Of a stretch of 64,000 nucleotides of DNA, positions 48,076-63,860 are shown piece by piece. The notes beneath the pieces were generated by a model. It had not been told where the DNA came from. It saw only the letters and a list, made by a program, of their open reading frames with translations, and did no database searches. Within the stretch, counting starts at the first letter, position 1, and every line of letters starts with the position of its first letter. Source of the stretch: Schumannella soli (lineage in GTDB: Bacteria; Actinomycetota; Actinomycetes; Actinomycetales; Microbacteriaceae); assembly GCF_006517435.1 (NCBI RefSeq), contig NZ_VHQG01000005.1, forward strand, positions 265,222 through 329,221, given 5' to 3'. A program made the position numbers and the translations under genes.

Positions 48076-48127
48076 TACTCTCTTTCGTATCGGCGCCGCC
48101 TCCGTGTGCGGCGCCGGAGGAGTGGAC
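48076..48127 (+). promoter_or_regulatory. clpC promoter and structured leader
   Basis: -10 TACTCT (48076-48081), then two CGGCGCCG octamers (48091-48098 and 48109-48116) that can pair with each other around a 10-base loop, ending where the GGAG ribosome site begins (48117). The -10 is identical to that of ftsH. Confidence 0.5.
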
Positions 48128-50617
48128 ATGTTCGAGAGATTCACCGACCGGGCCCGACGGGTCGTGGTGCTCGCCCAGGAAGAGGCGAAGCTTCTCAACC
48201 ACAACTACATCGGCACCGAGCACATCCTTCTGGGCCTCATCCACGAGGGCGAAGGCGTCGCCGCGAAGGCACTCGAGAGCCTCGGCATCTCGCTGGATGC
48301 CGTGCGCGAGCAGGTGCAGGACATCATCGGCCAGGGTCAGCAGCAGCCGACCGGCCACATCCCCTTCACCCCGCGCGCCAAGAAGGTGCTCGAGCTGAGC
48401 CTGCGCGAGGCGCTGCAGCTCGGTCACAGCTACATCGGCACCGAGCACATCCTGCTCGGGCTCATCCGCGAGGGCGAGGGCGTCGCCGCTCAGGTGCTCG
48501 TCAAGCTCGGCGCCGACCTGAACCGCGTGCGCCAGCAGGTCATCCAGCTGCTCAGCGGCTACCAGGGCAAGGAGCAGGTCGCCGTCGGCGGCAACGACCA
48601 GGCCCCCGACAAGGGATCGCAGATCCTCGACCAGTTCGGGCGCAACTACACGCAGCTCGCCCGCGACGGCAAGCTCGACCCGGTCATCGGGCGCGAGAAG
48701 GAGATGGAGCGGGTCATGCAGATCCTCTCCCGCCGCTCGAAGAACAACCCCGTGCTGATCGGCGAGCCCGGCGTCGGCAAGACCGCCGTCGTCGAGGGCC
48801 TCGCCCAGGCGATCGTGCGCGGCGACGTGCCCGAGACGCTGAAGGACAAGCAGCTCTACACGCTCGACCTCGGCTCGCTCATCGCCGGATCCCGCTACCG
48901 CGGAGACTTCGAGGAGCGCCTCAAGAAGGTCACCAAGGAGATCCGCACCCGCGGTGACATCATCACCTTCATCGACGAGATCCACACGCTCGTCGGCGCG
49001 GGTGCCGCCGAGGGCGCGATCGACGCGGCCAGCATCCTCAAGCCGATGCTCGCCCGCGGCGAGCTGCAGACGATCGGCGCGACCACGCTCGACGAGTACC
49101 GCAAGCACTTCGAGAAGGATGCGGCCCTCGAGCGCCGCTTCCAGCCGGTGCGCGTCGAGGAGCCCTCGCTGCCGCACACGATCAACATCCTCAAGGGCCT
49201 GCGCGACAAGTACGAGGCCTTCCACAAGGTGTCGATCACGGATGGCGCCCTGGTCGCGGCGGCGAACCTCGCCGACCGCTACATCCAGGACCGCTTCCTG
49301 CCCGACAAGGCCATCGACCTGATCGACGAGGCCGGCGCGCGCCTGCGCCTGTCGATCCTGTCGGCCCCGCCGGAGCTGCGCGAGTTCGACGACAAGATCG
49401 CCGAAGTCCGCGTCGGCAAGGAGTCGGCGATCGAAGACCAGGACTTCGAGAAGGCCGCGAGCCTGCGCGACGAGGAGAAGAAGCTGCTCGGCGAGCGGCT
49501 GCGCCTCGAGAAGCAGTGGCGTTCGGGTGACGTGGCCGCGAGCGGCACCGTCGACGAGGGCGTCATCGCCGAGGTTCTGGCGAACGCGACCGGCATCCCC
49601 GTGTTCAAGCTCACGGAGGAGGAGTCGAGCCGCCTCATCTTCATGGAGAAGGCCCTGCACGAGCGGGTCATCGGCCAGGAGGAGGCCATCTCGGTCCTCG
49701 CCAAGACGATCCGCCGCACCCGCGCCGGACTCAAGGACCCGAAGCGCCCCTCGGGCTCGTTCATCTTCGCCGGCCCCACCGGCGTCGGGAAGACCGAGCT
49801 CGCCAAGGCGCTCGCCGAGTTCCTCTTCGACGACGAGGGTGCGCTGATCTCGCTCGACATGTCGGAGTACGGCGAGAAGCACACGGTCTCGCGCCTGTTC
49901 GGAGCCCCTCCCGGGTTCGTCGGCTTCGAGGAGGGCGGCCAGCTCACCGAGAAGGTGCGCCGCAAGCCCTTCAGCGTCGTGCTCTTCGACGAGATCGAGA
50001 AGGCGCACCCCGACATCTTCAACTCGCTGCTCCAGATCCTGGAGGAGGGACGTCTGACGGATGGTCAGGGTCGCGTCGTCGACTTCAAGAACACCGTGAT
50101 CATCATGACCACGAACCTCGGCACGAAGGACATCACCGGCGGCCCCGTCGGCTTCACGCTCGAGGGCAACACCGAGAACAGCTACCGGGCCATGCGCGCC
50201 AAGGTGGTCGAGGAGCTGAAGAAGCACTTCAAGCCGGAGTTCCTGAACCGCGTCGACGAGACGATCGTGTTCCCGCAGCTCTCGCAGGACGAGCTCAAGC
50301 AGATCGTCGGCCTCTTCATCAAGCGCCTGCAGGACCGCCTGCTCGACCGCGACATGACGATCGAGATCTCGGAGCTCGCCCGCGAGGAGCTCATCAAGAT
50401 CGGATGGGAGCCGACCCTCGGCGCCCGCCCGCTGCGCCGCGCGGTGCAGCACGAGATCGAGGACCGGCTCTCGGAGGAGATCCTGCACAACCGCCTCGTC
50501 GCGGGCGACCACGTGCAGGTCGACTTCAAGGACGGCGAGTTCACCTTCGCGACCGGGCGTCAGCCGGGCCGCGAGCTCACCGAGGCCGCGGCCGCGATCG
50601 AGGGCTCGGCCTCCTAG
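48128..50617 (+). CDS. clpC: ATP-dependent Clp protease ATPase subunit ClpC
   Basis: An 829-residue unfoldase from ATG 48128. Two Clp-N repeats ([34 protein letters not shown] and [30 protein letters not shown]) precede AAA domain 1 (Walker A GEPGVGKT, Walker [13 protein letters not shown]). The UVR-containing middle domain ([32 protein letters not shown]) separates it from AAA domain 2 ([20 protein letters not shown], and the ClpP-docking VGF-type loop). It feeds proteins to ClpP. It is monocistronic with a structured leader and a UUCG terminator. Confidence 0.97.
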
Positions 50618-50776: not shown

Positions 50777-51286
50777 GTGCCCTCCGAGTTCCAGGTGCGC
50801 CGCGCGCGCACGAGCGACGTGCCCCGCATCCTCGAGCTGATCGAGCCGCTCGTGCAGTCGCGCATCCTGCTCGGCAAGGAGCGCGTCGTGCTCTACGAGG
50901 CGGTGCAGGAGTTCCGGGTCGTCGAGGCGCCGGACGGCGAGCTGCTGGGATGCGGCGCCCTGCACGTCATGTGGGAGGACCTCGGCGAGGTGCGCACCCT
51001 CGCGGCCGCCGACGGCATGCGCGGCCGCGGTGTCGGGCACGCGCTGCTCGAACGACTCGAGGCGGACGCGCTCGAGCTCGGCCTGACGCGGCTGTTCTGC
51101 CTGACCTTCGAGACCGACTTCTTCCAGCGCCACGGCTTCACCGAGATCGGCGAGGGCGTGGTGCCGCCCGAGGTCTACGCCGAGCTGGTGCGCTCGACCG
51201 ACGACGGCGTCGCCGAGTTCCTCGACCTCGCCCGCGTGAAGCAGAACACCCTCGGCAACACGCGCATGCTCAAGACGCTCGTCTGA
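50777..51286 (+). CDS. argA: Amino-acid N-acetyltransferase (N-acetylglutamate synthase)
   Basis: A 169-residue GNAT from GTG 50777. RRARTSDVPRILELIEPLVQSRILLGKERVVLYEAVQEFRV is the substrate-side N-terminus. LLGCGALHVMWEDLGEVRTLAAADGMRGRGVGHALLERLEADALELGLTRLFCLTFETDFFQRHGFTEI contains the acetyl-CoA loop RGRGVG and is close to short actinobacterial NAGS proteins (the Rv2747 type), which make N-acetylglutamate for arginine synthesis without the amino-acid kinase domain. It is monocistronic, outside any arg cluster. Confidence 0.85.
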   Translation: MPSEFQVRRARTSDVPRILELIEPLVQSRILLGKERVVLYEAVQEFRVVEAPDGELLGCGALHVMWEDLGEVRTLAAADGMRGRGVGHALLERLEADALELGLTRLFCLTFETDFFQRHGFTEIGEGVVPPEVYAELVRSTDDGVAEFLDLARVKQNTLGNTRMLKTLV

Positions 51287-51399: not shown

Positions 51400-52026
51400 A
51401 TGTCGACGCCCGAGCACCCGCGTCCGCTGCCGCCGGAGGTCTACCGCCGTCGCCGACTGCTGGTGTTCGGCGGTCTCGCGGTCGTCATCGTCGTGCTGGC
51501 GCTCATCCTCTGGCCTCGCGGCGGCGGTGACGCGGCCGGCGGCAAGAGCCCCTCGCCGTCGCCGACCGTCTCGAAGGGGCTCGCCGACCTGAACCCCAGC
51601 GGCAAGGCCTCGGGTGCCGCCGCCACGACCTGCTCGCCGTCGGCGATCACCGTCACCGCCGTGCTCGACAAGACCAACTACGGCGCCGACCAGCAGCCGC
51701 AGATGTCGATGACGATCACGAACTCGAGCGCGACCGCCTGCAGCGTGGATGTCGGCACGGCCGCTCAGGAGTTCACGATCACCTCGGGTGAGGACCGCAT
51801 CTGGGATTCGAAGGACTGCCAGACCGATCCGACCAACGACGTCCGCACGATCGATGCCGGGCAGTCGCTGAGCACGGCGGCGCTGCCGTGGGAGCGGGTG
51901 CGTTCGGATCCGTCGACCTGCGACCAGACGAACCGCACCCCGGCGACCGGCGGCGGGGCGACCTACCGCCTGCAGGTGAAGCTCGGCGCGATCCAGTCGG
52001 AGCAGCTGCTCTTCGTGCTCGCCTGA
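51400..52026 (+). CDS. Membrane-anchored extracytoplasmic protein (DUF4232-like)
   Basis: A 208-residue protein. A Pro/basic cytoplasmic head (residues 1-20), the LLVFGGLAVVIVVLALILW anchor (21-39), a Gly/Ser/Pro linker, then an Ig-like beta domain from CSPSAITVTAVLDKTNYGADQQPQMSMTITNSSATACSVDVGTAAQEFTITSG to the C-terminus. Four Cys in the domain can form two disulfides. The strand pattern resembles DUF4232-type domains of secreted actinobacterial proteins. No enzymatic motif; a binding or wall-structural role is possible. Confidence 0.65.
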   Translation: MSTPEHPRPLPPEVYRRRRLLVFGGLAVVIVVLALILWPRGGGDAAGGKSPSPSPTVSKGLADLNPSGKASGAAATTCSPSAITVTAVLDKTNYGADQQPQMSMTITNSSATACSVDVGTAAQEFTITSGEDRIWDSKDCQTDPTNDVRTIDAGQSLSTAALPWERVRSDPSTCDQTNRTPATGGGATYRLQVKLGAIQSEQLLFVLA

Positions 52027-52034
52027 GCGTTCCG

Positions 52035-52080
52035 GGCGCGGGATCCTCACGTCCAGACTGACACCTGACGGTCCCGCGCC
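52035..52080 (+). terminator. Hairpin after the DUF4232-like gene
   Basis: A 9-bp stem GGCGCGGGA/TCCCGCGCC with a 28-base loop, starting nine bases past the stop. Weak as a terminator because of the long loop. Confidence 0.35.
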
Positions 52081-52108
52081 GTCCACTGTCCGTCATCTGT
52101 CGTTCATC
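52080..52108 (+). promoter_or_regulatory. PHO-box-like repeats phased by 11 bases
   Basis: CGTCCAC (52080-52086), CGTCATC (52091-52097) and GTTCATC (52102-52108) recur every 11 bases. PhoP/RegX3-type boxes in actinobacteria are direct repeats of GTTCAYC-like 7-mers with 4-base spacers. They lie about 100 bases before the -10 of a gene encoding a phosphatase domain. Binding is inferred. Confidence 0.4.
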
Positions 52109-52205
52109 TGACGCGGGCACTGTCGTCGCGAGCCACCCGGCCGCGACCCCGATCGCGCTCGGACGACTTCGACGCCCGACTCTGGTGCTGAACCCTGCTC
52201 ATGGG

Positions 52206-52233
52206 TATGGTTCACACCATGACAGCGCTGTCA
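52206..52233 (+). promoter_or_regulatory. Promoter -10 and LacI-type operator of GH92-PAP2 gene
   Basis: TATGGT (52206-52211) is a likely -10. The perfect 14-bp palindrome TGACAGCGCTGTCA (52220-52233) covers the expected start of transcription; its AGCGCT core is the classic half-site junction of LacI/CcpA-family operators. A second dyad, ATGGT-tcac-ACCAT (52207-52220), overlaps the -10. Confidence 0.6.
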
Positions 52234-52317
52234 CCCGCTCCGGCGGGCGCGCGTCGCACCACCAGCACCACCACCATCTCGGCGTCGCGCCCGTCGCGGC
52301 CACACGAAGGAACCCCC

Positions 52318-55300
52318 GTGTCGCTCCAGCACGTCCTGCCCGCTCCCGCGCGCGCCCTCGCCGGCGTCGTCGCTTTCGCGATCGCCGCCGGCGGCGCCCT
52401 CGCCGTCGGCCTGCCGGCCGGCGCCGCTCAGGCCGCGCCCGCGCCGACCGACTACGCCTCCTACGTCGACCCATTCGTGTCGACCGCGGCCGACGACGGC
52501 AACGACCTCCCCGGTGCGCAGGCGCCGAACGGCCTCGCCAAGGTCAACCCGATGACGGTGCCGAACCGCAACCACTCGGGCTACGACTACACGCAGAGCA
52601 AGATCGCCGGCTTCACCAACACGAACCTCGACGGCGTCGGCGGCTCGGGCGGCGGCGGCGACATCCTCGTCGTCCCGACCTCGGTCGACTACACCTCGCG
52701 CCCCAGCACCGGCTCGTACGCGCACAGCTTCTCGCACAGCGACGAGGAAGCCGCGCCCGGCTACTACCGCGTCGGCCTCGACGCGATCGCCGGTAAGGAC
52801 GGCGCCGTCACGACGCCGGGCGGCACCATCCAGTCGGAGCTGACTGCGACCACCCGCACGGGACTGCACCGCTACGCCTTCCCGGCCGGGTCGGCGCCCT
52901 CGCTCGTGGTCGACCTCGCGAACAACTACACGAGCCGCACGGCCTCGTCGCTGACCGTGACGAAGCTCGCCGACCAGCGCGCCGCGATCTCGGGCCGCAT
53001 CGCGGGCTCGTTCAACGGCGCCGCCTACCAGCTCTACTACTACGCCGAGACGACGAAGCCGGTCACCTCGGTGCAGACCTGGGGCGCCGCCGGCGCGGCC
53101 CTCAGCTCGGCCACGACGCAGGACGGCGTCGACACCGGTGCCGTGCTGAAGTTCGCCACGGCGGATGCCGCCGACGTCGAGCTGCGCGTCACCCTCTCGC
53201 CGATCAGCGCCGACCAGGCCCGCATCGACCAGCAGGCCGAGATCGCCGGCGCCACCTTCGACCAGGTGCGCGCCGCCACCCGCGCCGTCTGGAACGGCCG
53301 TCTCGGCTCGGTCGACGTGACCGCCTCGACCACGAGCGACCCCGACGGCTCGCTCACGAAGCTCTTCTACACGCACCTGTACCGCATGTTCGCGCTGCCG
53401 ATGAACGCGACCAGCACCTCCGGCACCTACCGCGGCGTCGACGGCGCCGTGCACCGCGCCGAGGGCTTCACCTACTACGACGCGTGGTCGTCGTGGGATG
53501 ACTTCCGCAAGTACTCCGTCTTCGCCTACGTCGCGCCCGAGATGTACCGCGACATGGTGCAGTCGCTGATCTACCTCTTCGCCGACTCGGCATCCAGCGG
53601 AACCGCGCTCAGCTCGGCCGTGCACTCGGTGCCGACCGTGCGCTGGGAGCGCTCGTCGGTCATCATCGCCGATGCGATCTCGAAGGGCTTCACCGGCTTC
53701 GACCGTCTCGGCGAGGCGTATCCCGCGATCGACACCCTCGTCGGCCGCTACACCGGCGCCCAGCTGCGCGCCGGCTACATCGCGAACGACCCCGGCAACA
53801 GCGTGCAGCGCGGCTACGACCAGTGGGCGCTCGCGATCATCGCCGACGCGCTCGGCCGCACGGATGACGCGACGAAGCTGCGCGAGCAGGCCGCCTTGCC
53901 GATCGCGAACCTGATCAAGCCGGGCGCGTTCACCGCGGCCGACGGCACCCAGGCCGGCCTCCTCACCCCGCGTGACGCGAACGGCAACTGGACCAGCGTC
54001 GACTACGAGCGCTTCGAGGCCGCGAGCCTCTACCAGGGCACGCTCTGGCAGTACAACTGGTACGACGCCTACGACATGGACGGCCTCATCCAGGCCATGG
54101 GCGGCACCGACGCGACCCGTCTCGCGCTCGAGCACATGTTCGGCGAAGACCGTCCGAACGACGGCAAGGGGATGCTGCACTCGAACGCCAACGAGATCGA
54201 CCTGCAGGCGCCCTACCTCTTCAACTACGTGGGCGAGCCGAGCCTGACCCAGAAGTGGGTGCGCTCGATCTACACGAAGGAGACCTGGAACCGGTACATC
54301 GCGACCGGCAGCACGGGCGAGGCGCCGAGCGCGAACGGCGAGTTCACCCCGCCGATCAAGACCAAGGTCTACAAGCTCGACCCGGCCGGCTTCCTGCCGA
54401 CCATGGACAACGACGCGGGCACCATGTCGACGATGTTCGTCGCCGCATCCATCGGCCTGTTCCCGGTGACCGCGGGCTCGTCGCAGTTCCAGATCGGCTC
54501 GCCGTTCTTCGACAAGACCACGATCAACTACGCGAGCGGACGCAGCTTCAGCGTCAGCGCGAAGGGCGTCAGCGCCGACGACTACTACGTGCAGTCGGCC
54601 ACGCTGAACGGCGAGGCCTTCGGCAACACCTGGCTCGACTACGCGGATGTCGTGGGCGGCGGCAGCCTCGACTTCCAGATGGGCGCGACGCCGTCGAGCT
54701 GGGGATCGACGACGGCGCCGGCCTACTCGCTGAGCACGGCCGATGAGGGCGGATCGCAGCCGGGCGCCGCGACCGTCGCGGTCGACGCGAACACCGTGCA
54801 AGCGGCCGCGAACGGCGCCGTCGACGGCACAGTCACCATGACGCTGAGCGGAGGCCGCTTCGCCGGCGCCGCCGGCACGAACCTCACCGGCTCGGGCGCC
54901 GCGACCGTCGCGGGCCTGCCCGCCGGCCTCGCCGCCGACGTGACCGTCGCCGACGCGACCTCGGTGCGCATCCACGTCACCGGAACCGCGACCGAGGCCG
55001 CGCGCTTCTCGATCGGCTTCGCCGACAGCGCCTTCGCCGATGGCCTGACGGCCCGCGAGGTGACCGGACCCGGACTCTCGAGCCGTGACCCGCTCATCGT
55101 CTCGGTCGCCTCGGCCGAGCGCGTCGCGCTGCAGCAGCTCATCGACCAGGCTGCGCTCGTGCGCCCCGGCAACTACTCGGCCGCGAGCTACCGCGCGCTG
55201 ACCTCGGCGCTCGAGAACGCGCGCACCGTCGTCGACGCGGCCACCGCCTCCACCGCCGACCTCCGCGCCGCCGCCGACCGCCTGAACGGCGCGATCGCGG

Positions 55301-58300
55301 GCCTCGCGCTCGACCAGGGCGCCTACCGCACCCTGCAGGCCGAGGCCTCCGACGCCTGGTCGGCCGGTCAGCTCAAGAACGAGAGCTTCCAGTCGGGCGG
55401 CAACCTCGGCGGCGTGACCACGGGCTCGTGGGTGCGCTACGACGACCTCGACTTCGCCGGGGCGTCGCCGCAGAGCGTCGCCATCCGCTACTCCAGCAGC
55501 GCCTCGAGCACGGGTGCGCCGAGCCGGGTGGATGTGCGCGCGGGCGACGCGAACGGACCGATCGTCGCGACCGCATCCCTGCCCGGCACGAACGGCTGGG
55601 GCAACTACACGACCGTGACCGTCGCGATCACCGACCCGGCCGCACTGGCCGCCGCGAAGCAGGCGTCGTTCACCTTCACCGCGCCCTCGGGCCAGCAGTG
55701 GGTGTCGAACTTCGACTGGTTCCAGTTCTCCACCGACCCGGTCGGCGGAGCCCCGGTGACCACGATCAAGCTCACCGCGCCCAACGCCACCGCGACCGGC
55801 GGCGGCTCGCTCGCCCTCAACCTCGCGAACGGCAAGTTCGAGAACGTCACCAACGGCGCCTGGGCGCAGTGGAACGGCGTCGAGCTCGGATCCGGCGTCG
55901 TGAAGGTGTCGGTCGAGTACGACAAGCCGCAGTCGCGCGCCGCCGCCGACTCGGCGATCGAGCTGCGCCTCGGCTCGCGCACCGGAACCGTCGTCGCCAA
56001 GATCGCGCTGCCCTACACGGGCAGCGGATGGGGCACGACCGGCACCGCGACCGCCGACCTCGACCCGGCCGTCTTCGCCGGCACTCAGACCGTGTTCGCG
56101 GTCTTCACCTCGACGACGCAGAACTCGAACCAGCCCTACGTCGCCAACGTGAACTCCTTCGAGCTCATCCCGAAGCCGGCATCCTCGTCGGTCGCGAACG
56201 AGCTCGAGGCCGAGAAGTGGGTGACCAAGAGCACCGCCGACCTCAAGAGCGAGAACAGCACCTGGAACAACGCCGGGCCCGTCACCAACCTCGGCGGCAC
56301 CGCGAACGGCGCCTGGCTCGACTACGGCACGCTCGACTTCGGCGACAAGGCGGTGACCGCGATCACGGTGCGCTACGTCAACAACTCGAGCCGTGTCGGC
56401 GACAACACCTCGATCGACGTCGTGCTCGACGGCTATGACCCGGCGAAGCTCGGCACTCCGGCCGTCAACATCCCGCTGCCCGTGACCGGGTCGTCGTGGA
56501 GCGCCGACGGGACCGTCACCGCGAAGCTCGCGGCGCCGATCACCGGCAAGCACAGCGTGCAGCTCGTGTTCCACACCACCCCGGCGGCGAACCGGCCCTA
56601 CGCCGGCAACGTCGACAAGCTCGTCTTCGAGCGCGGCATCGTGACGACCGGCCTCGCGGCCGCGATCACGGCGACCGAGGGTCTCGCCGCCGACGGCGCG
56701 CGCTACTCGGCGATCGACTTCGCTGTGTTCCAGCGCGAGCTCGCCGCGGCGAAGAAGCTCCTCGCCGCGCCGACGACGCAGAGCGCCGTGGATGCCCAGG
56801 CCCGCAGCCTGCGCCTCGCCGCCGGCCAGCTCGTGCCGGTGTCGAGCATCCGACTGGATGACGCCATCGCCCAGGCGGCGGCCATCGACGCCGACCGCTA
56901 CACGGCGGACTCGTTCGACGCCGTCGCGTCGTCGCTCGCCGCGGCGAAGCGCGTCGCGGGCGACACCGCGGCGAGCGACGCGGACCGTGACGCGGCCACG
57001 GCGGCCCTGACCGCCGCGCTCGCCGGGCTCGTCGTGAAGCCGGCCGCGGCCCCCGCCGCCCCGGTCGCCGCCTCGGCGGTCGCGGCCGACTCCAGCGTCA
57101 CCGTGCGCTGGGCCGCCGTCATCGACGCGACCACCCCGGTCACGAGCTACCTCGTCGACCTCGACGACAGCCACCAGGTGACGGTGGAGGCGAGCCAGAC
57201 CTCGGTCGTCTTCACCTGGCTGAAGGCGGGCGAGACGGTGCGAGCGCGGGTCACCGCGATCAACGCCGCGGGCGCCTCGACGCCCACCGAGTGGACGACG
57301 CCGGTCGTCATCGGCGCCCCGGCTCCGGCGGCGAACCAGCCGCGCGTGGCCGCCGCCGGTGCTTCCGCTGACGGCGCCGCCGCATCCGCCTCGCCGTTCG
57401 CGGCCAGCGCGCTCGCGGCCGGCTACAGCTCCGACGCCTGGCCCGCCACGTCGAACGGCAAGGACTACCTGGTCAACCTGCTCAGCGGCGTCAGCACGCT
57501 CGGCACCGACGTGCTCGGCGCGAACAAGGCCCTGCCCAACTCGGCCGCGGTGACCGCCGCGAACGACCAGGTCGCCATCCGCATCAACAACTCCGCCTCG
57601 ACCGCGCAGGTGAAGAAGGCCGAGATCGACGCCGACAACAGCCCCACGGTCACCATGGCCGACGGCTTCGGCTCGCGTCTCGGCTCGCTCTACCTGACGG
57701 CCCTCAACGGCGGCAAGCTGCCCAAGACCTCGGCGCTGTTCGGCCGGGTCACGCAGGGTCTCGACTCGACCGGCACGGCGAAGGACACCTACAACTACCT
57801 GCGCCCCTACGTGCGCCTGGGCTTCGTGGGCGACGGCGGACGCATCTACGAGTCGAGCAACGGCTCATACGCGGGGCTCGCCGGCAACGGCTCGTTCCCG
57901 AGCGGCCACACCTACTCGGGCTACGTCACCGGCACCCTGTTGGCGACCCTGCTGCCCGAGCTGGCGCCGCAGATCCTCGCCCGCGCCTCGGAGTACGGCG
58001 ACAACCGCATCGTGCTCGGCTTCCACTACCCGATCGACGTGATGGGCGGACGCATGGCCGCGCAGGCGACGATCGCGCACCGCTGGGCCGACCCCGAGTT
58101 CGCGGCGCTCATGACCGAGGCGCACCAGGAGCTCGAGAGCGTTCTCGGCGCCGCCTGCACCGACGGCGGCTACGGCGACGACCTCAACGCCTGCGCCGGC
58201 GCGCTCTACGACGGCCTCGACGACACCGCGGCGACGAAGCTCTACACCGAGCGCCTCAGCTACGGCCTGCCGCAGAACGGCGTCGCCGGGCAGAAGATCA

Positions 58301-59190
58301 CGGTTCCGGATGACGCGGTCGCGCTGCTGGCCTCCTCGTTCCCCGAGCTGAACGACGCGCAGCGCCGCCAGATCCTCGAGCAGACCGCCCTCGACTCCGG
58401 CTACCCGCTCGACGTCACCGCGCAGGGCGACGCGAGCTGGCAGCGCATCGACCTGGCCCGGGCGATGACCGCGAAGTACACGCTCGACGCGGCCGGAAAC
58501 GTCACGGTCGGCAGCGGCGTCTCCGACACGGATGCGTCGATCGCGGCGGTCGCCGACCTCCGGGTGGCCGGCGTCACGCTCGACGGCTTCGACCCGAGCA
58601 TCCGCACCTACGTCGTCGACTGGCCGACCGGGCACGCGCTGCCCGCCGTCTCGGCGAGCGCGAGCGTCGACGGCGCCTCGGTGTCGGTGACCTCGGGGGC
58701 TGCTTCGGCGGGGCGCTCGGCGGCGGGTCCGTCTGGATCGTCGGCGCGCACGCTGTTCGCGGCGGCGACGACCCAGGCGCTGCTGCAGGCTCCGCTCGCG
58801 GCGGCCACGGATGCGCGCACCGTCACGGTCACTTCGGCCAACGGGCAGCACGCGCAGCAGTACACGGTGCTGTTCAACGTGACGGCCGACGACCACCTGC
58901 CGGCCGCGGTCGACCCCGGCGCGGGCGACCCGGGCGACGGCGGGCCGGGCACTGGTGAACCGGGAACGGGGACGCCGGGCACGGGGACGCCGGGCACCGG
59001 CTCGGGCGGCACCGGAGCGGGCTCGATCCAGCCCGCCGCGGGCGGACGCGGATCGGCGGCCGGCGACGACCTCGCCGCGACCGGCGTGAGCGGACTGCCC
59101 GAGGCTCTCGCTGCGGCGCTGCTGCTGCTCGCGGCCGGCGCCGGGCTCGTCATGGCGCGTCGCCGCCGCGCGGCTCGCGCCGGAGCCTGA
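52318..59190 (+). CDS. Wall-anchored GH92 alpha-mannosidase fused to PAP2 acid phosphatase
   Basis: A 2290-residue exported protein. I start it at GTG 52318, with GAAGGA seven bases upstream; the frame is open to 52201 but that stretch holds the promoter. Signal peptide 1-41 (ends GAAQAAP). GH92 spans about 45-800: YVDPFVSTAADDGNDLPGAQAPNGLAKVNP, WSSWDDFRKYSVF, candidate acid Glu626 in NANEIDLQAPYLFNY and candidate base pair Asp697/Asp699 in MDNDAGTMS. Then FIVAR (931-998), three CBM6-like modules (about 1003, 1147 and 1294 onward), FIVAR 2 (about 1510-1575) and Fn3 (about 1580-1668). The PAP2 class A phosphatase (about 1700-1930) has K1822-x6-R1829-P, PSGH1864 and R1897-x5-H1903-x3-D1907, all intact. 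A Gly/Thr/Pro hinge, LAATG (2252-2256) sortase site, helix and basic tail end it. Enzyme order suggests sequential attack on phosphomannan. Confidence 0.87.
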   Translation: MSLQHVLPAPARALAGVVAFAIAAGGALAVGLPAGAAQAAPAPTDYASYVDPFVSTAADDGNDLPGAQAPNGLAKVNPMTVPNRNHSGYDYTQSKIAGFTNTNLDGVGGSGGGGDILVVPTSVDYTSRPSTGSYAHSFSHSDEEAAPGYYRVGLDAIAGKDGAVTTPGGTIQSELTATTRTGLHRYAFPAGSAPSLVVDLANNYTSRTASSLTVTKLADQRAAISGRIAGSFNGAAYQLYYYAETTKPVTSVQTWGAAGAALSSATTQDGVDTGAVLKFATADAADVELRVTLSPISADQARIDQQAEIAGATFDQVRAATRAVWNGRLGSVDVTASTTSDPDGSLTKLFYTHLYRMFALPMNATSTSGTYRGVDGAVHRAEGFTYYDAWSSWDDFRKYSVFAYVAPEMYRDMVQSLIYLFADSASSGTALSSAVHSVPTVRWERSSVIIADAISKGFTGFDRLGEAYPAIDTLVGRYTGAQLRAGYIANDPGNSVQRGYDQWALAIIADALGRTDDATKLREQAALPIANLIKPGAFTAADGTQAGLLTPRDANGNWTSVDYERFEAASLYQGTLWQYNWYDAYDMDGLIQAMGGTDATRLALEHMFGEDRPNDGKGMLHSNANEIDLQAPYLFNYVGEPSLTQKWVRSIYTKETWNRYIATGSTGEAPSANGEFTPPIKTKVYKLDPAGFLPTMDNDAGTMSTMFVAASIGLFPVTAGSSQFQIGSPFFDKTTINYASGRSFSVSAKGVSADDYYVQSATLNGEAFGNTWLDYADVVGGGSLDFQMGATPSSWGSTTAPAYSLSTADEGGSQPGAATVAVDANTVQAAANGAVDGTVTMTLSGGRFAGAAGTNLTGSGAATVAGLPAGLAADVTVADATSVRIHVTGTATEAARFSIGFADSAFADGLTAREVTGPGLSSRDPLIVSVASAERVALQQLIDQAALVRPGNYSAASYRALTSALENARTVVDAATASTADLRAAADRLNGAIAGLALDQGAYRTLQAEASDAWSAGQLKNESFQSGGNLGGVTTGSWVRYDDLDFAGASPQSVAIRYSSSASSTGAPSRVDVRAGDANGPIVATASLPGTNGWGNYTTVTVAITDPAALAAAKQASFTFTAPSGQQWVSNFDWFQFSTDPVGGAPVTTIKLTAPNATATGGGSLALNLANGKFENVTNGAWAQWNGVELGSGVVKVSVEYDKPQSRAAADSAIELRLGSRTGTVVAKIALPYTGSGWGTTGTATADLDPAVFAGTQTVFAVFTSTTQNSNQPYVANVNSFELIPKPASSSVANELEAEKWVTKSTADLKSENSTWNNAGPVTNLGGTANGAWLDYGTLDFGDKAVTAITVRYVNNSSRVGDNTSIDVVLDGYDPAKLGTPAVNIPLPVTGSSWSADGTVTAKLAAPITGKHSVQLVFHTTPAANRPYAGNVDKLVFERGIVTTGLAAAITATEGLAADGARYSAIDFAVFQRELAAAKKLLAAPTTQSAVDAQARSLRLAAGQLVPVSSIRLDDAIAQAAAIDADRYTADSFDAVASSLAAAKRVAGDTAASDADRDAATAALTAALAGLVVKPAAAPAAPVAASAVAADSSVTVRWAAVIDATTPVTSYLVDLDDSHQVTVEASQTSVVFTWLKAGETVRARVTAINAAGASTPTEWTTPVVIGAPAPAANQPRVAAAGASADGAAASASPFAASALAAGYSSDAWPATSNGKDYLVNLLSGVSTLGTDVLGANKALPNSAAVTAANDQVAIRINNSASTAQVKKAEIDADNSPTVTMADGFGSRLGSLYLTALNGGKLPKTSALFGRVTQGLDSTGTAKDTYNYLRPYVRLGFVGDGGRIYESSNGSYAGLAGNGSFPSGHTYSGYVTGTLLATLLPELAPQILARASEYGDNRIVLGFHYPIDVMGGRMAAQATIAHRWADPEFAALMTEAHQELESVLGAACTDGGYGDDLNACAGALYDGLDDTAATKLYTERLSYGLPQNGVAGQKITVPDDAVALLASSFPELNDAQRRQILEQTALDSGYPLDVTAQGDASWQRIDLARAMTAKYTLDAAGNVTVGSGVSDTDASIAAVADLRVAGVTLDGFDPSIRTYVVDWPTGHALPAVSASASVDGASVSVTSGAASAGRSAAGPSGSSARTLFAAATTQALLQAPLAAATDARTVTVTSANGQHAQQYTVLFNVTADDHLPAAVDPGAGDPGDGGPGTGEPGTGTPGTGTPGTGSGGTGAGSIQPAAGGRGSAAGDDLAATGVSGLPEALAAALLLLAAGAGLVMARRRRAARAGA

Positions 59191-59233
59191 CGCCCCGCAC
59201 CTCGCGCGGACCACACCCGACCCCATGCCACGA

Positions 59234-59290
59234 CGATCGGTCGCAACGCGCCGTCATCCGCAAACCGGAACGGCGCGTTGCGACCGATCG
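59234..59290. repeat. Long intergenic hairpin C
   Basis: A perfect 21-bp stem (59234-59254 with 59270-59290) around a 15-base loop, between the convergent GH92-PAP2 and radA genes. Arms include CGGTCGCAACGCGCC. No U tract follows. Confidence 0.8.
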
Positions 59291-59337
59291 ATGGCGTGCC
59301 CGCGGGCGACAGATCCAGCGCGCGAACGCGCCGTCGC

Positions 59338-60693
59338 CTAGAACTCGGGGATGTCGGGGCGCGGCTCGGCGACCGCGTTGCGGAAGGCGCGGCCCAGGGC
59401 ATCCCGCAACGGTCCGGCGGAGTTGTCGAGCAGGGTCGTGTAGCCGAGGCGGCGGCCTTCGGAGACGCGCTGCTTCGCCGAGCTGACCGGACGGATCTCG
59501 CCCGCGAGCGAGATCTCGCCGACGGCCGCGAGCTCGTGCGGCAGCGCCTTGTCGCGGTAGGCGCTCGCGATCGCGAGGGCGATCGCGAGGTCGGCGCCGG
59601 GTTCGGTGAGCCGGATGCCGCCCACGGTCGAGACGTAGACGTCGGCGGCCGAGAGCTTGAGCCCGCACCGGCGCTCGAGCACCGCGAGCAGCATCGCGAC
59701 GCGCGAGGCGTCGACGCCGTTGACGACGCGGCGGGGCTGCGGCGCCTGCGAGCCGACGATGAGCGCCTGCACCTCGACCGGGATCGCTCGGCGGCCCTCG
59801 ACCGCGATCGTCACGCAGGTGCCGCTCACGGGCGTCGCCGCACGCGAGAGGAACAGGCCGGAGGGATCCGGCACCTCGGCGATGCCGTCGCCGGTCATCT
59901 CGAAGCAGCCGACCTCGTCGGTCGGGCCGAAGCGGTTCTTGAGCGCGCGGATGAAGCGCAGCGCGGTCTGGCGGTCTCCCTCGAAGCTGCAGACGACATC
60001 CACCAGGTGCTCGAGCAGCCGCGGGCCCGCGATCGAGCCGTCTTTCGTGACGTGGCCGACGAGCAACACCGGCAGGTCGCGCTCCTTGGCGACGCGGATG
60101 AGCGTGCCCGCCACCTCGCGCACCTGCGCCGGCTGGCCGGCCGCGCCGTCGCTCATCGCCGACGACACCGTCTGCACCGAGTCGACGATGAGCAGCTGGG
60201 GCTTCACGGCATCCACCTGGCCGAGGATCGTCGCCAGGTCGGTCTCGCTCGCGAGGTAGAGCTCGTCGTGCAGCGCGTTCGTGCGCTCGGCCCGCAGGCG
60301 CACCTGGTTCGCCGACTCCTCGGCGCTGACGTAGAGCACGCGCGCGCCCGCGCGGGCGGCGCGGGAGGCGACCTCGAGCAGCAGGGTCGACTTGCCGACG
60401 CCGGGTTCGCCGCTGAGCAGGATCGCCGCGCCGGGGACGACGCCGCCGCCCAGAACGCGGTCGAACTCCGCGATGCCGCTCGCCGAGCGCCGCACCTCGG
60501 TCGTGCCGAGCTGCGTGATCGGACGGGCGACGCGGGCGTCGCTCACGCGGGCCGGCGCGACGGCGGCGCGCGGCGCATCCCGCTCGACGACCGTGCCCCA
60601 GGCCTGGCATTCCGGGCAGCGGCCCATCCACTTCGCGCCGCCCCAGCCGCACTCGGAGCAGACGTAGGCGGAGGGAACTGCGGGGCGGGCCAT
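59338..60693 (-). CDS. radA: DNA repair protein RadA
   Basis: A 451-residue protein from ATG 60693, leaderless by its TAGCCT hexamer. The N-terminal zinc finger uses Cys12, Cys15, Cys26 and Cys29 (CSECGWGGAKWMGRCPEC). The RecA-like core has Walker A GEPGVGKS, Walker B LLIVDSVQT and the RadA-specific KNRFG motif (ALKNRFGPTDEVG). The C-terminal part is the Lon-like domain (GIRLTEPGADLAIALAIASAYRDKALPHELAAVGEISLAGEIRPV). It drives branch migration in recombination. It is convergent with the GH92-PAP2 gene across hairpin C. Confidence 0.96.
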   Translation of the reverse strand: MARPAVPSAYVCSECGWGGAKWMGRCPECQAWGTVVERDAPRAAVAPARVSDARVARPITQLGTTEVRRSASGIAEFDRVLGGGVVPGAAILLSGEPGVGKSTLLLEVASRAARAGARVLYVSAEESANQVRLRAERTNALHDELYLASETDLATILGQVDAVKPQLLIVDSVQTVSSAMSDGAAGQPAQVREVAGTLIRVAKERDLPVLLVGHVTKDGSIAGPRLLEHLVDVVCSFEGDRQTALRFIRALKNRFGPTDEVGCFEMTGDGIAEVPDPSGLFLSRAATPVSGTCVTIAVEGRRAIPVEVQALIVGSQAPQPRRVVNGVDASRVAMLLAVLERRCGLKLSAADVYVSTVGGIRLTEPGADLAIALAIASAYRDKALPHELAAVGEISLAGEIRPVSSAKQRVSEGRRLGYTTLLDNSAGPLRDALGRAFRNAVAEPRPDIPEF

Positions 60694-62057: not shown

Positions 62058-63860
62058 CTACGGCAGGTAGTACGTCGGGTTCGGCAGCTTCACCGCGCTG
62101 AGCGACGATCCGCCGAGCAGGTCGCTGAACTGATCGCCGAAGTTCGCGACGATCGTGTACTTGCCGCCGTCACGCGACTGCACGTGCGCGCGCGTCTGCG
62201 ACTTGTACTCGACGGTCGTGCACTTCGCGGCGGCGCAGCGGATATACGACGGCTGCTGCGAGGCTCCGACGCCCGTCCACTTCGTGTAGTAGTTAGCGGC
62301 CGTGAATCCGGAGTAGCCGACCTTCGCCAGGTTGGCGATCGTCGCATCCTTCTGGTCGTCGTTGCGGCCCGTCAGCCCGACGATCGTGCAGCCGGCTTTC
62401 TTCGCGATCGAGACGAGCGACTGCATGCTCGGCGTGGCCGGGAAGCGCTGCTCCTGCACCCAGACGTCCTGCTTCGCGGGGTCGAAGACGAACTTCATGT
62501 CGGCGACCTCCATGTCGTAGGTCCACAGGGTGGTGTCGTCGGCATCCAGCACGATCGCCGGGTTCTTGTGCAGCTTCGACCCGAGGTAGCAGGCAGCCGC
62601 GACGCGGGGGATCTGCTTCGACACGATGGAGCGCATCTCGCGGATGTAGGGCGAGTCGGCCTTGTTCGCGATGCCCGTGCCGGGGTCGCCGTAGTAGGCG
62701 TAGATCGTCGACTTGACGCTGTCGATGTTCGGGATGCCCTCGCCGCCCTGCGTCGCGCCGCTCGATCCGTCGGCCGCCATCGTGAAGGTCGAGCGCGGCG
62801 CCAGGTTCGGCTCGCTCACGCCCGGGAGGTTCGCCGACGGCAGGTAGTAGGTCGGGTTCGGCAGCTTCAGCGTGCGCTCGGCGTAGCCGCCCTGCAGGTC
62901 GCTGAACTGGTCGCCGATGTTGAGCGTGATCGTGTAGCCGAGGTCCTGCTCGATGTGCTTGCGGGTGCCGGCCTTGAACTCGACCGTCGTGCACTTCGCG
63001 ATGGCGCAGCTGATGTACGAGGGCTGCTGGGATGCGCCCACGCCGGTCCACTTGGTGAAGAAGTTCTCGGCGGTGAAGCCCTCGTAGCCGAGCTTGTCGA
63101 GGTTGCCGATCGTCGCGGACTTCTGGTCGTCGTTGCGGCCGGTCACGCCGAAGATCGTGAACCCGAGATCGTGGGCGGCGTTGACGTAGGCGAGCATGCC
63201 CGGGGTCGCGGGGAAGCGCTGCGCCTGCACCCAGACGTCCTGCTCGGCGGGGGTGAAGACGAACTTCATGTCGCCCACCTCCATGTCGTAGGTCATGAGG
63301 GTGGTGTCGTCGGAGTCGAACACGATCGCGGGCTTCTGGCCGGCGGCGATCGCGGCGTCGTAGGCGGGCTTCAGCTTCGCGGTCTCCGCGGCGGTGAGCG
63401 CATCCATCTCGCGGATGTAGGGGGAGTCGGTCTTGTTCGCGATGCCCGTGCCGGGGTCGCCGTAGTAGGTCGCGATCGTCTTCTTCACGACGTCGATGTT
63501 CGGGATGCCCTCGCCGCCCTGCGTCGTGCCGCTCGAGCCGTCGGGCTTCATCGTGAACCGGGTGCGCGGGGTGAGCGTGCGGTCGTCCACGCCCCAGCCG
63601 GCGCCGCCGGACCAGGGCCTGCTGCCGTTGCCCGAGCCGCCGCCCTGCCACCCGTACCCGCCCGAGCCGTACCCGCCGCCTCCGCTCCCGCCTCCCTGGT
63701 CGGCGCCGTGCGCCTGGGCGGCGGTCGCGCCGGTGAGCGCGGCGCCGAGGCCGAGCGCGACGGCCGCGGCGACGGCGATGCCGCGGCGGGCGCGGTTCGC
63801 GCCGCCCGTGCGGCTCGCGTGGGCTTCGGTGGCGGATGAGTGGGATCGGACGAACGTCAC
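62058..63860 (-). CDS. Secreted tandem HAD acid phosphatase
   Basis: A 600-residue exported protein from GTG 63860 behind AGGGAGAG. The signal peptide ends near AQAHG (about residue 51), followed by a Gly/Ser/Trp linker to residue 90. Two homologous HAD (class B acid phosphatase-like) domains follow, offset by 257 residues. Motif I is FDSDDTT (Asp182, Asp184) and LDADDTT (Asp439, Asp441); motif II is GVTGRNDDQK and GLTGRNDDQK; motif IV is IGDQFSDLQGG and FGDQFSDLLGG. Both halves keep all catalytic residues and share ATYYGDPGTGIANK-like and KWTGVGASQQPSYI segments. It should release phosphate outside the cell. It lies close to the PAP2-bearing protein. Confidence 0.85.
   Translation of the reverse strand: MTFVRSHSSATEAHASRTGGANRARRGIAVAAAVALGLGAALTGATAAQAHGADQGGGSGGGGYGSGGYGWQGGGSGNGSRPWSGGAGWGVDDRTLTPRTRFTMKPDGSSGTTQGGEGIPNIDVVKKTIATYYGDPGTGIANKTDSPYIREMDALTAAETAKLKPAYDAAIAAGQKPAIVFDSDDTTLMTYDMEVGDMKFVFTPAEQDVWVQAQRFPATPGMLAYVNAAHDLGFTIFGVTGRNDDQKSATIGNLDKLGYEGFTAENFFTKWTGVGASQQPSYISCAIAKCTTVEFKAGTRKHIEQDLGYTITLNIGDQFSDLQGGYAERTLKLPNPTYYLPSANLPGVSEPNLAPRSTFTMAADGSSGATQGGEGIPNIDSVKSTIYAYYGDPGTGIANKADSPYIREMRSIVSKQIPRVAAACYLGSKLHKNPAIVLDADDTTLWTYDMEVADMKFVFDPAKQDVWVQEQRFPATPSMQSLVSIAKKAGCTIVGLTGRNDDQKDATIANLAKVGYSGFTAANYYTKWTGVGASQQPSYIRCAAAKCTTVEYKSQTRAHVQSRDGGKYTIVANFGDQFSDLLGGSSLSAVKLPNPTYYLP

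Follow-up and report, generated by a model that had tools for sequence, protein, structure and literature searches.

The GH92-PAP2 gene and its neighbours

The window, by which is meant the whole stretch of 64,000 nucleotides that was analysed, contains a gene for a protein of 2290 aa in which a glycoside hydrolase of family 92 (GH92), three CBM6 modules, a fibronectin type III (fn3) domain and a predicted phosphatase of the PAP2 kind follow each other on one chain. The gene and its neighbours are:

52318..59190, forward strand: whole gene, GH92-CBM6(x3)-fn3-PAP2 protein, 2290 aa (translation, Pfam)
48104-50617: ClpC/ClpB-like ATPase gene
50777-51286: N-acetyltransferase gene
51400-52026: 208-aa frame, no family given
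59338-60693, strand opposite to the GH92-PAP2 gene: radA

Translation of 52318-59190 (+) gives 2290 stop-free codons and then a stop codon. The GTG at 52318 is preceded, just 5', by a purine-rich GAAGGA, and the residues that follow it resemble, by eye, a signal peptide; an ATG further upstream, at 52201, opens a longer frame. A promoter and terminator scan of 51900-59400 returned no match. The unbroken frame of 2290 residues described in the earlier note is borne out: third-position GC stays between 0.85 and 0.99 across all 100-codon blocks, and a second genome of the genus (G118) carries an orthologue that is 96.4% identical, forms an intact frame of 2330 aa and has the same flanking genes. 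Because of this even codon pattern and of the intact orthologue in the same gene order, the gene is regarded as a real frame, and a frameshift or assembly join inside it, which is unlikely, was rejected.

Past radA, a 600-aa frame (62058-63860, reverse strand) holds an HAD class IIIB acid phosphatase domain (Acid_phosphat_B, 195 bits) and is a further phosphatase gene near the GH92-PAP2 gene.

The GH92 domain

52435..54744, forward strand: GH92 domain of the CcMan5 type, residues 40-809 (phmmer to 4aq0/2xsg, 1188 bits)
54034..54036, forward strand: Gln573 in the motif YQGTLWQY, aligned with the general acid Glu of GH92 (alignment to BT3130)
54412..54414, forward strand: Asp699, at the position of the general base (alignment to BT3130)

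The protein can be assigned to glycoside hydrolase family 92, since both Pfam domains, GH92N (PF17678; residues 49-294, 183.1 bits, cut-off 34.5) and GH92 (PF07971; residues 300-654 and a second stretch, 294.5 bits, cut-off 24.6), as well as the NCBIfam subfamily TIGR01180 (289.7 bits, cut-off 249.55), score over their cut-offs. Its best match in the PDB is CcMan5 from Cellulosimicrobium cellulans, with 527 of 766 aligned residues identical. The general acid and base residues of another member, BT3130, are identified in passages of PMC5930347, and in the alignment to this enzyme (6f8z; we counted the shift from chain to protein numbering ourselves) Gln573 is aligned with the acid Glu535, and Asp699 with the base Asp637. 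Asp699, proposed earlier as a catalytic residue, is therefore placed on the general base; Glu626, proposed likewise, lies off the general-acid position, which is that of Gln573.

The phmmer alignment puts a Gln at the acid site of the CcMan5 chain as well, and Gln together with the Asp base was read in all 44 CcMan5-type rows (three genomes counted twice). Control GH92 loci had Glu at the acid position in 18 of 22 readable cases (six of them one alignment column off) and Gln in the other four. Judged from its Gln acid site, Asp base and high identity to CcMan5, the window GH92 is of the CcMan5 uncapping type, and not an ordinary GH92 alpha-mannosidase with a Glu general acid. A Gln at position 573 is incapable of the general-acid role, and a GH92 with Gln at this site can be expected to depend on a good leaving group, phosphate for instance; the same Gln is presumably the basis of the phosphodiester preference of CcMan5. 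That enzyme targets Man-P-Man linkages and has a mannan-specific decapping activity, according to excerpts of PMC5930347.

Binding modules and candidate wall anchor

55126..55305, forward strand: FIVAR-like repeat, residues 937-996 (Pfam 21.2, below the cut-off of 29.2)
55324..56613, forward strand: three CBM6 modules, about residues 1003-1432 (Pfam 144.9 bits; outer limits set by the author)
57067..57300, forward strand: fibronectin type III domain, residues 1584-1661 (Pfam fn3 35.1 bits)
59071..59085, forward strand: LAATG sorting-signal candidate, residues 2252-2256, followed by a hydrophobic stretch and RRRR

The carbohydrate-binding-like modules noted earlier hold up as far as the three CBM6 stretches are concerned, which Pfam finds; the FIVAR repeat appears only under its cut-off. 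Over the whole set, the CBM6 modules are 43-44% identical to those of two Cellulosimicrobium GH92 proteins. In CcMan5, the first of these modules, CBM6a, binds yeast mannan, which neither CBM6b nor the bc pair does by itself (excerpts of PMC5798181).

The proposed LAATG anchor has its motif, hydrophobic stretch and RRRR in place; on the other side, the NCBIfam LAVTG-anchor domain scores 24.2, below its cut-off of 27, and of the 16 fused proteins examined two have the motif, the window protein and its sister in G118. The host genome has two sortase-domain matches over the cut-off.

The predicted phosphatase domain

57385..58542, forward strand: residues 1690-2075, PAP2 unit of the class A acid phosphatase type, extended at its C-terminus (Pfam, motifs, predicted fold)
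57781..57807, forward strand: PAP2 motif 1, KDTYNYLRP (K1822-P1830)
57898..57909, forward strand: PAP2 motif 2, PSGH, residues 1861-1864 (Ser1862, His1864)
58006..58038, forward strand: PAP2 motif 3, R1897-x5-H1903-x3-D1907

Pfam places PAP2 at residues 1818-1922 (45.1 bits, cut-off 27.2). The phosphatase unit and the GH92 domain are separated by roughly 880 residues. All three PAP2 motifs announced in the earlier note were recovered, at residues 1822-1830, 1861-1864 and 1897-1907, and Lys1822, Arg1829, Ser1862, His1864, Arg1897, His1903 and Asp1907 are invariant in 19 sequences. An AlphaFold2 model of residues 1690-2125, built from an alignment of 19 sequences, reached a mean pLDDT of 88.2 and a pTM of 0.83, being less sure past about residue 2060. 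In a Foldseek comparison against the PDB, all 29 matches with E <= 0.001 were soluble acid phosphatases of the PhoC/PhoN/E. blattae/M2-32 kind (TM by target 0.55-0.71), with class A named in some of the titles; membrane PAP2 proteins and haloperoxidases matched solely at E 0.018 and above. On the basis of the model and these matches, a non-PAP2 fold for residues 1700-1930 was rejected.

The class A motif is given in passages of PMC12356135 as KX6RP-(X12-54)-PSGH-(X31-54)-SRX5HX3D. The 16 fused proteins all match it, with allowed spacing, except that each has an Asn in place of the Ser before Arg. The same passages report His174, Arg207, His213 and Asp217 of M2-32 as essential by mutation, and by motif these correspond to His1864, Arg1897, His1903 and Asp1907 of the window protein. 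The NCBIfam equivalog model for PhoC scores 60.6 bits on it, far under the cut-off of 430. Its motifs, sequence and predicted fold mark the C-terminal domain as a predicted acid phosphatase of the class A type.

The fused layout in relatives

A scan of named genomes yielded 36 loci with a CcMan5-type GH92, one of which (L055, on a 4.4-kb contig) was dropped, leaving 35 usable. Twelve of these encode a fused GH92-PAP2 chain: a motif search found all three PAP2 motifs in the GH92 frame at 11 loci, and at the twelfth, from Streptomyces acidipaludis (L054), the GH92 is split by a frameshift and PAP2 lies on the second part. The hosts are Mangrovihabitans, Micromonospora, Actinoplanes, Streptomyces, Actinacidiphila and an Actinomycetales bin. 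When the window protein was taken together with the 11 fused loci, GH92N, GH92, CBM6, fn3 and PAP2 were present in 12 of 12 and FIVAR in 11 of 12 (E <= 0.001). Two further fusions came from class genomes (G298 and G392).

The layout, which had been put forward as new, recurs beyond this genome in Streptomyces, Actinacidiphila, Micromonosporaceae and others; what stands of the claim is that no earlier report was found. In the literature searched, to which most subscription papers were external, no description of a single GH92-phosphatase chain or of partner swapping was found, and an earlier report is possible. The enzymes and the pathway steps are already known; it is the single-chain layout and the partner swapping for which this literature holds no earlier report.

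Inside the fused clade, the GH92 proteins of two Salinispora loci (L039:9821-13732 and L044:9821-13732, both forward strand) stop just past FIVAR, where fn3 and PAP2 would come next, probably through loss of the phosphatase part. In the deposited assemblies, the CcMan5-type GH92 extends over two frames in S. acidipaludis (L054:9680-16665, forward strand) and in Luteimicrobium album (L056:9815-14787, forward strand).

Phosphatase partners of non-fused GH92 genes

A separate PAP2 gene adjoins the CcMan5-type GH92 at 3 of the 35 loci. In two Cellulosimicrobium species it lies about 100 bases downstream of GH92, and in Bifidobacterium psychraerophilum it lies upstream, ending about 0.7 kb before the GH92 frame. 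The PAP2 phosphatase of Cellulosimicrobium arenosum carries CBM6 modules of its own, and that of C. terreum shows none. At eight further loci, all from Microbacteriaceae, a gene for a purple-acid-type metallophosphatase is found upstream on the same strand; at one of them (L036) some 1.8 kb separate its end from the GH92 gene. A Pfam scan of two metallophosphatase genes, those of L036 and of L015 (outside the eight), showed CBM6 in both. In total, a phosphatase is fused to or near the CcMan5-type GH92 at 23 of 35 usable named loci (12 + 3 + 8). The window and the 11 fused loci went into the PAP2 profile and so match it by construction (the loci had first been found by motif); finds from outside this set are L013, L024, L028, L053, L054, L070 and L071. 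L015 and L036 supplied the metallophosphatase profile, so that L036, among the eight, matches by construction.

The controls consisted of 20 loci picked by the author from 55 GH92 matches and of the three other GH92 genes of the host, 22 of the 23 being readable at the acid position (the exception is L120). None of the 23 had the window-type PAP2, and one had a metallophosphatase (L121). Fisher's test of 23/35 against 1/23 gives p = 1.8e-6, a value to be read with the relatedness of the loci in mind, because the tree needs few origins and the 23 are not independent events. The one positive control, L121:7896-13667 (forward strand), comes from another genome of the host's genus (G048) and encodes a Gln-type GH92 (FNQSTGYQY) and a purple-acid-type metallophosphatase in one frame of 1923 aa with an LAATG end. 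Its phosphatase domain, used as a query (E <= 1e-25), matched 23 of 299 family genomes; among the 12 matched frames of at least 1100 aa, GH92 is present in L121 itself and absent from the other 11. A widespread GH92-metallophosphatase fusion was not found in the family genomes sampled, L121 being the sole case.

Neither phosphatase kind was present in the fetched flanks (up to 10 kb) of 12 of the 35 relatives: Compostimonas, two Salinispora and nine of a deeper group (Cellulomonas, Nakamurella, Luteimicrobium, Agromyces lapidis, strain KH10 and Solimonas). Pfam found no other phosphatase on one or two neighbours at eight of these 12 loci (L039, L045, L046, L047, L049, L050, L051 and L052), and no phosphatase domain in the GH92 frames of L033, L039, L043, L046 and L049. 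Three of the four Gln-type controls likewise have neither phosphatase. At L104:8871-11339 (reverse strand) and L106:8231-10678 (forward strand), the GH92 motif is FAQGTSAQY, with Gln at the acid position and neither kind nearby. Compostimonas suwonensis carries tandem CcMan5-type GH92 genes (L033:3879-9512 and L033:9692-15676, both forward strand), again with neither kind nearby.

Among 394 class genomes, the GH92 type (E <= 1e-100) occurs in 6, the PAP2 type (E <= 1e-20) in 8 and both in 3, always on one chain, so that the PAP2 type is found in 3 of 6 genomes with this GH92 versus 5 of 388 without it. The remaining three GH92 genomes comprise one with an adjoining metallophosphatase (G481), one with it about 5 kb upstream (G340) and one with neither kind within 18 kb (G350).

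The evidence leans modestly towards a general pattern in which Gln-for-Glu GH92s recruit a phosphatase, drawn from two or more unrelated folds (PAP2 and purple-acid-type metallophosphatase) and either encoded next door or joined to the GH92 chain. Cap and phosphate would then come off together in the extracellular space. The phosphatase might instead be a general extracellular phosphate scavenger, with the fusion a convenience of shared secretion and the two domains not acting on the same molecule. Class A acid phosphatases can indeed be broad, as M2-32, profiled on nucleotides and sugar phosphates, has a broad substrate specificity (excerpts of PMC12356135), and in five of the eight class genomes where this PAP2 type occurs, no GH92 of this type accompanies it. 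A scavenger is nevertheless unlikely in view of the two unrelated folds that accompany Gln-type GH92, some of each with CBM6, and of the controls, which lack this PAP2 throughout and whose only metallophosphatase sits on a Gln-type GH92.

Phylogeny, origin and selection

In a tree made by a quick method, with SH-aLRT supports only, the PAP2-partnered rows form one clade (support 86 with L053 and 98 without it) and the metallophosphatase-partnered rows another (support 100), which suggests about one origin for the PAP2 partnership and one for the metallophosphatase partnership. The genes of the window and of G118 group with fusions from Micromonosporaceae and Streptomycetaceae, apart from the GH92 genes of their own family. 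Within 199 family genomes, the CcMan5-type GH92 occurs in six, and its fused version in two only, the host's own and G118. Horizontal gain of the fused gene by the host lineage would be the simplest reading.

Between the window and G118, dN/dS is 0.112 for GH92, 0.117 for CBM6 and 0.086 for the PAP2 core, with comparison genes at 0.045 (radA) and 0.075 (clpC); the C-terminal extension of PAP2 gives 0.327, from 16 changes in all. These ratios indicate purifying selection on both catalytic parts.

Proposed function

The protein is likely to be a secreted, probably wall-anchored two-step enzyme, in which one chain uncaps fungal phosphomannan and then dephosphorylates it. Sequence and comparison supply the domains, the residues, the predicted fold, the conserved fusion and the partnership, and from these we infer the substrate, the order of the steps, the anchoring and a benefit of tethering. 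The CBM6 modules would dock the chain on alpha-mannan. The GH92 domain, with Gln for the acid Glu and Asp699 as base, would hydrolyse the mannosyl-phosphate bond of Man-alpha-1-P-6-Man, phosphate being a leaving group good enough to depart without help from an acid. Uncapping would leave a mannose-6-phosphate end, a block to exo-mannosidases, from which the class A-type acid phosphatase domain of the same chain would then remove the phosphate; the glycan would thus be opened to other mannosidases, and mannose and Pi would become available to the cell. The core of this scheme, uncapping of Man-P-Man by GH92 followed by the same-chain phosphatase, was already in the earlier note; the CcMan5-type GH92, the predicted phosphatase fold and the partnership in relatives speak for it, and the parts that have to be given up are Glu626 and uniqueness.

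The host is not obviously a complete mannan degrader, because its genome gives no GH125 match and solely a weak GH76 match split over two frames; three GH92 genes are present besides that of the window. The GH76 match (alpha-1,6-mannanase family; host contig C1:481843-482557, L142 and L143) lies in two different frames and is possibly a broken gene or an assembly error.

The lack of an obvious mannan-degrading set, together with a gene that seems to move between lineages, would suit a pair acting on some other mannosyl-phosphate glycan than yeast-wall N-glycan mannan, for instance a polymer of bacterial walls or capsules, or the capsular phosphomannan of yeasts. Mannosyl-1-phosphate polymers occur in actinobacterial walls; nothing usable on bacterial mannosyl-phosphate polymers as a target was found in the literature searched. 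Such a substrate appears quite improbable, since CcMan5 has a mannan-specific decapping activity (excerpts of PMC5930347), its CBM6a binds yeast mannan (excerpts of PMC5798181) and no alternative target has direct support. That one of the two domains is inactive, for example a GH92 dead through the loss of an acid that Gln573 cannot replace, is very hard to reconcile with a CcMan5 that also has Gln yet is active on Man-P-Man (excerpts of PMC5930347), with purifying selection on both domains and with the retained phosphatase motif residues.

The two-step reading connects CcMan5, a glycan-engineering enzyme used for mannose uncapping, with a step that seems to be its partner in nature. It offers a sequence rule by which further enzymes of phosphorylated mannan could be sought: Gln for Glu, accompanied by a phosphatase. 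A tethered remover of cap and phosphate would also be a tool to rid yeast-made glycans of phosphate; CcMan5 is used to the opposite end, with the phosphate retained.

Comparison with known systems

The closest known relative is CcMan5 (PDB 2xsg, 4aq0), whose GH92 is 68.8% identical to that of the window protein and shares the Gln at the acid site. Full-length CcMan5 also has three tandem CBM6 modules behind GH92 (excerpts of PMC5798181); unlike the window protein, it is not known to carry a phosphatase on the same chain. Two other Cellulosimicrobium species encode their phosphatase apart from GH92, about 100 bases downstream; in the window the two belong to one chain.

With the class A acid phosphatases (PhoC, PhoN, the Escherichia blattae enzyme 1d2t and M2-32, 9htz), the window PAP2 has in common KX6RP, PSGH, RX5HX3D and a helical predicted fold. 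It differs from them in the Asn for Ser before Arg, in its C-terminal extension and in being part of a multidomain chain of 2290 aa.

The pathway for yeast mannan in Bacteroides thetaiotaomicron resembles the proposal in that mannose attached through phosphate is removed first and the phosphate is then taken off by phosphatases, as described in passages of PMC10154615. According to the same passages it differs in that uncapping is credited to a GH38, the phosphatases are named separately from it and both steps follow import into the cell, whereas in the window protein the two activities would share a single secreted chain.
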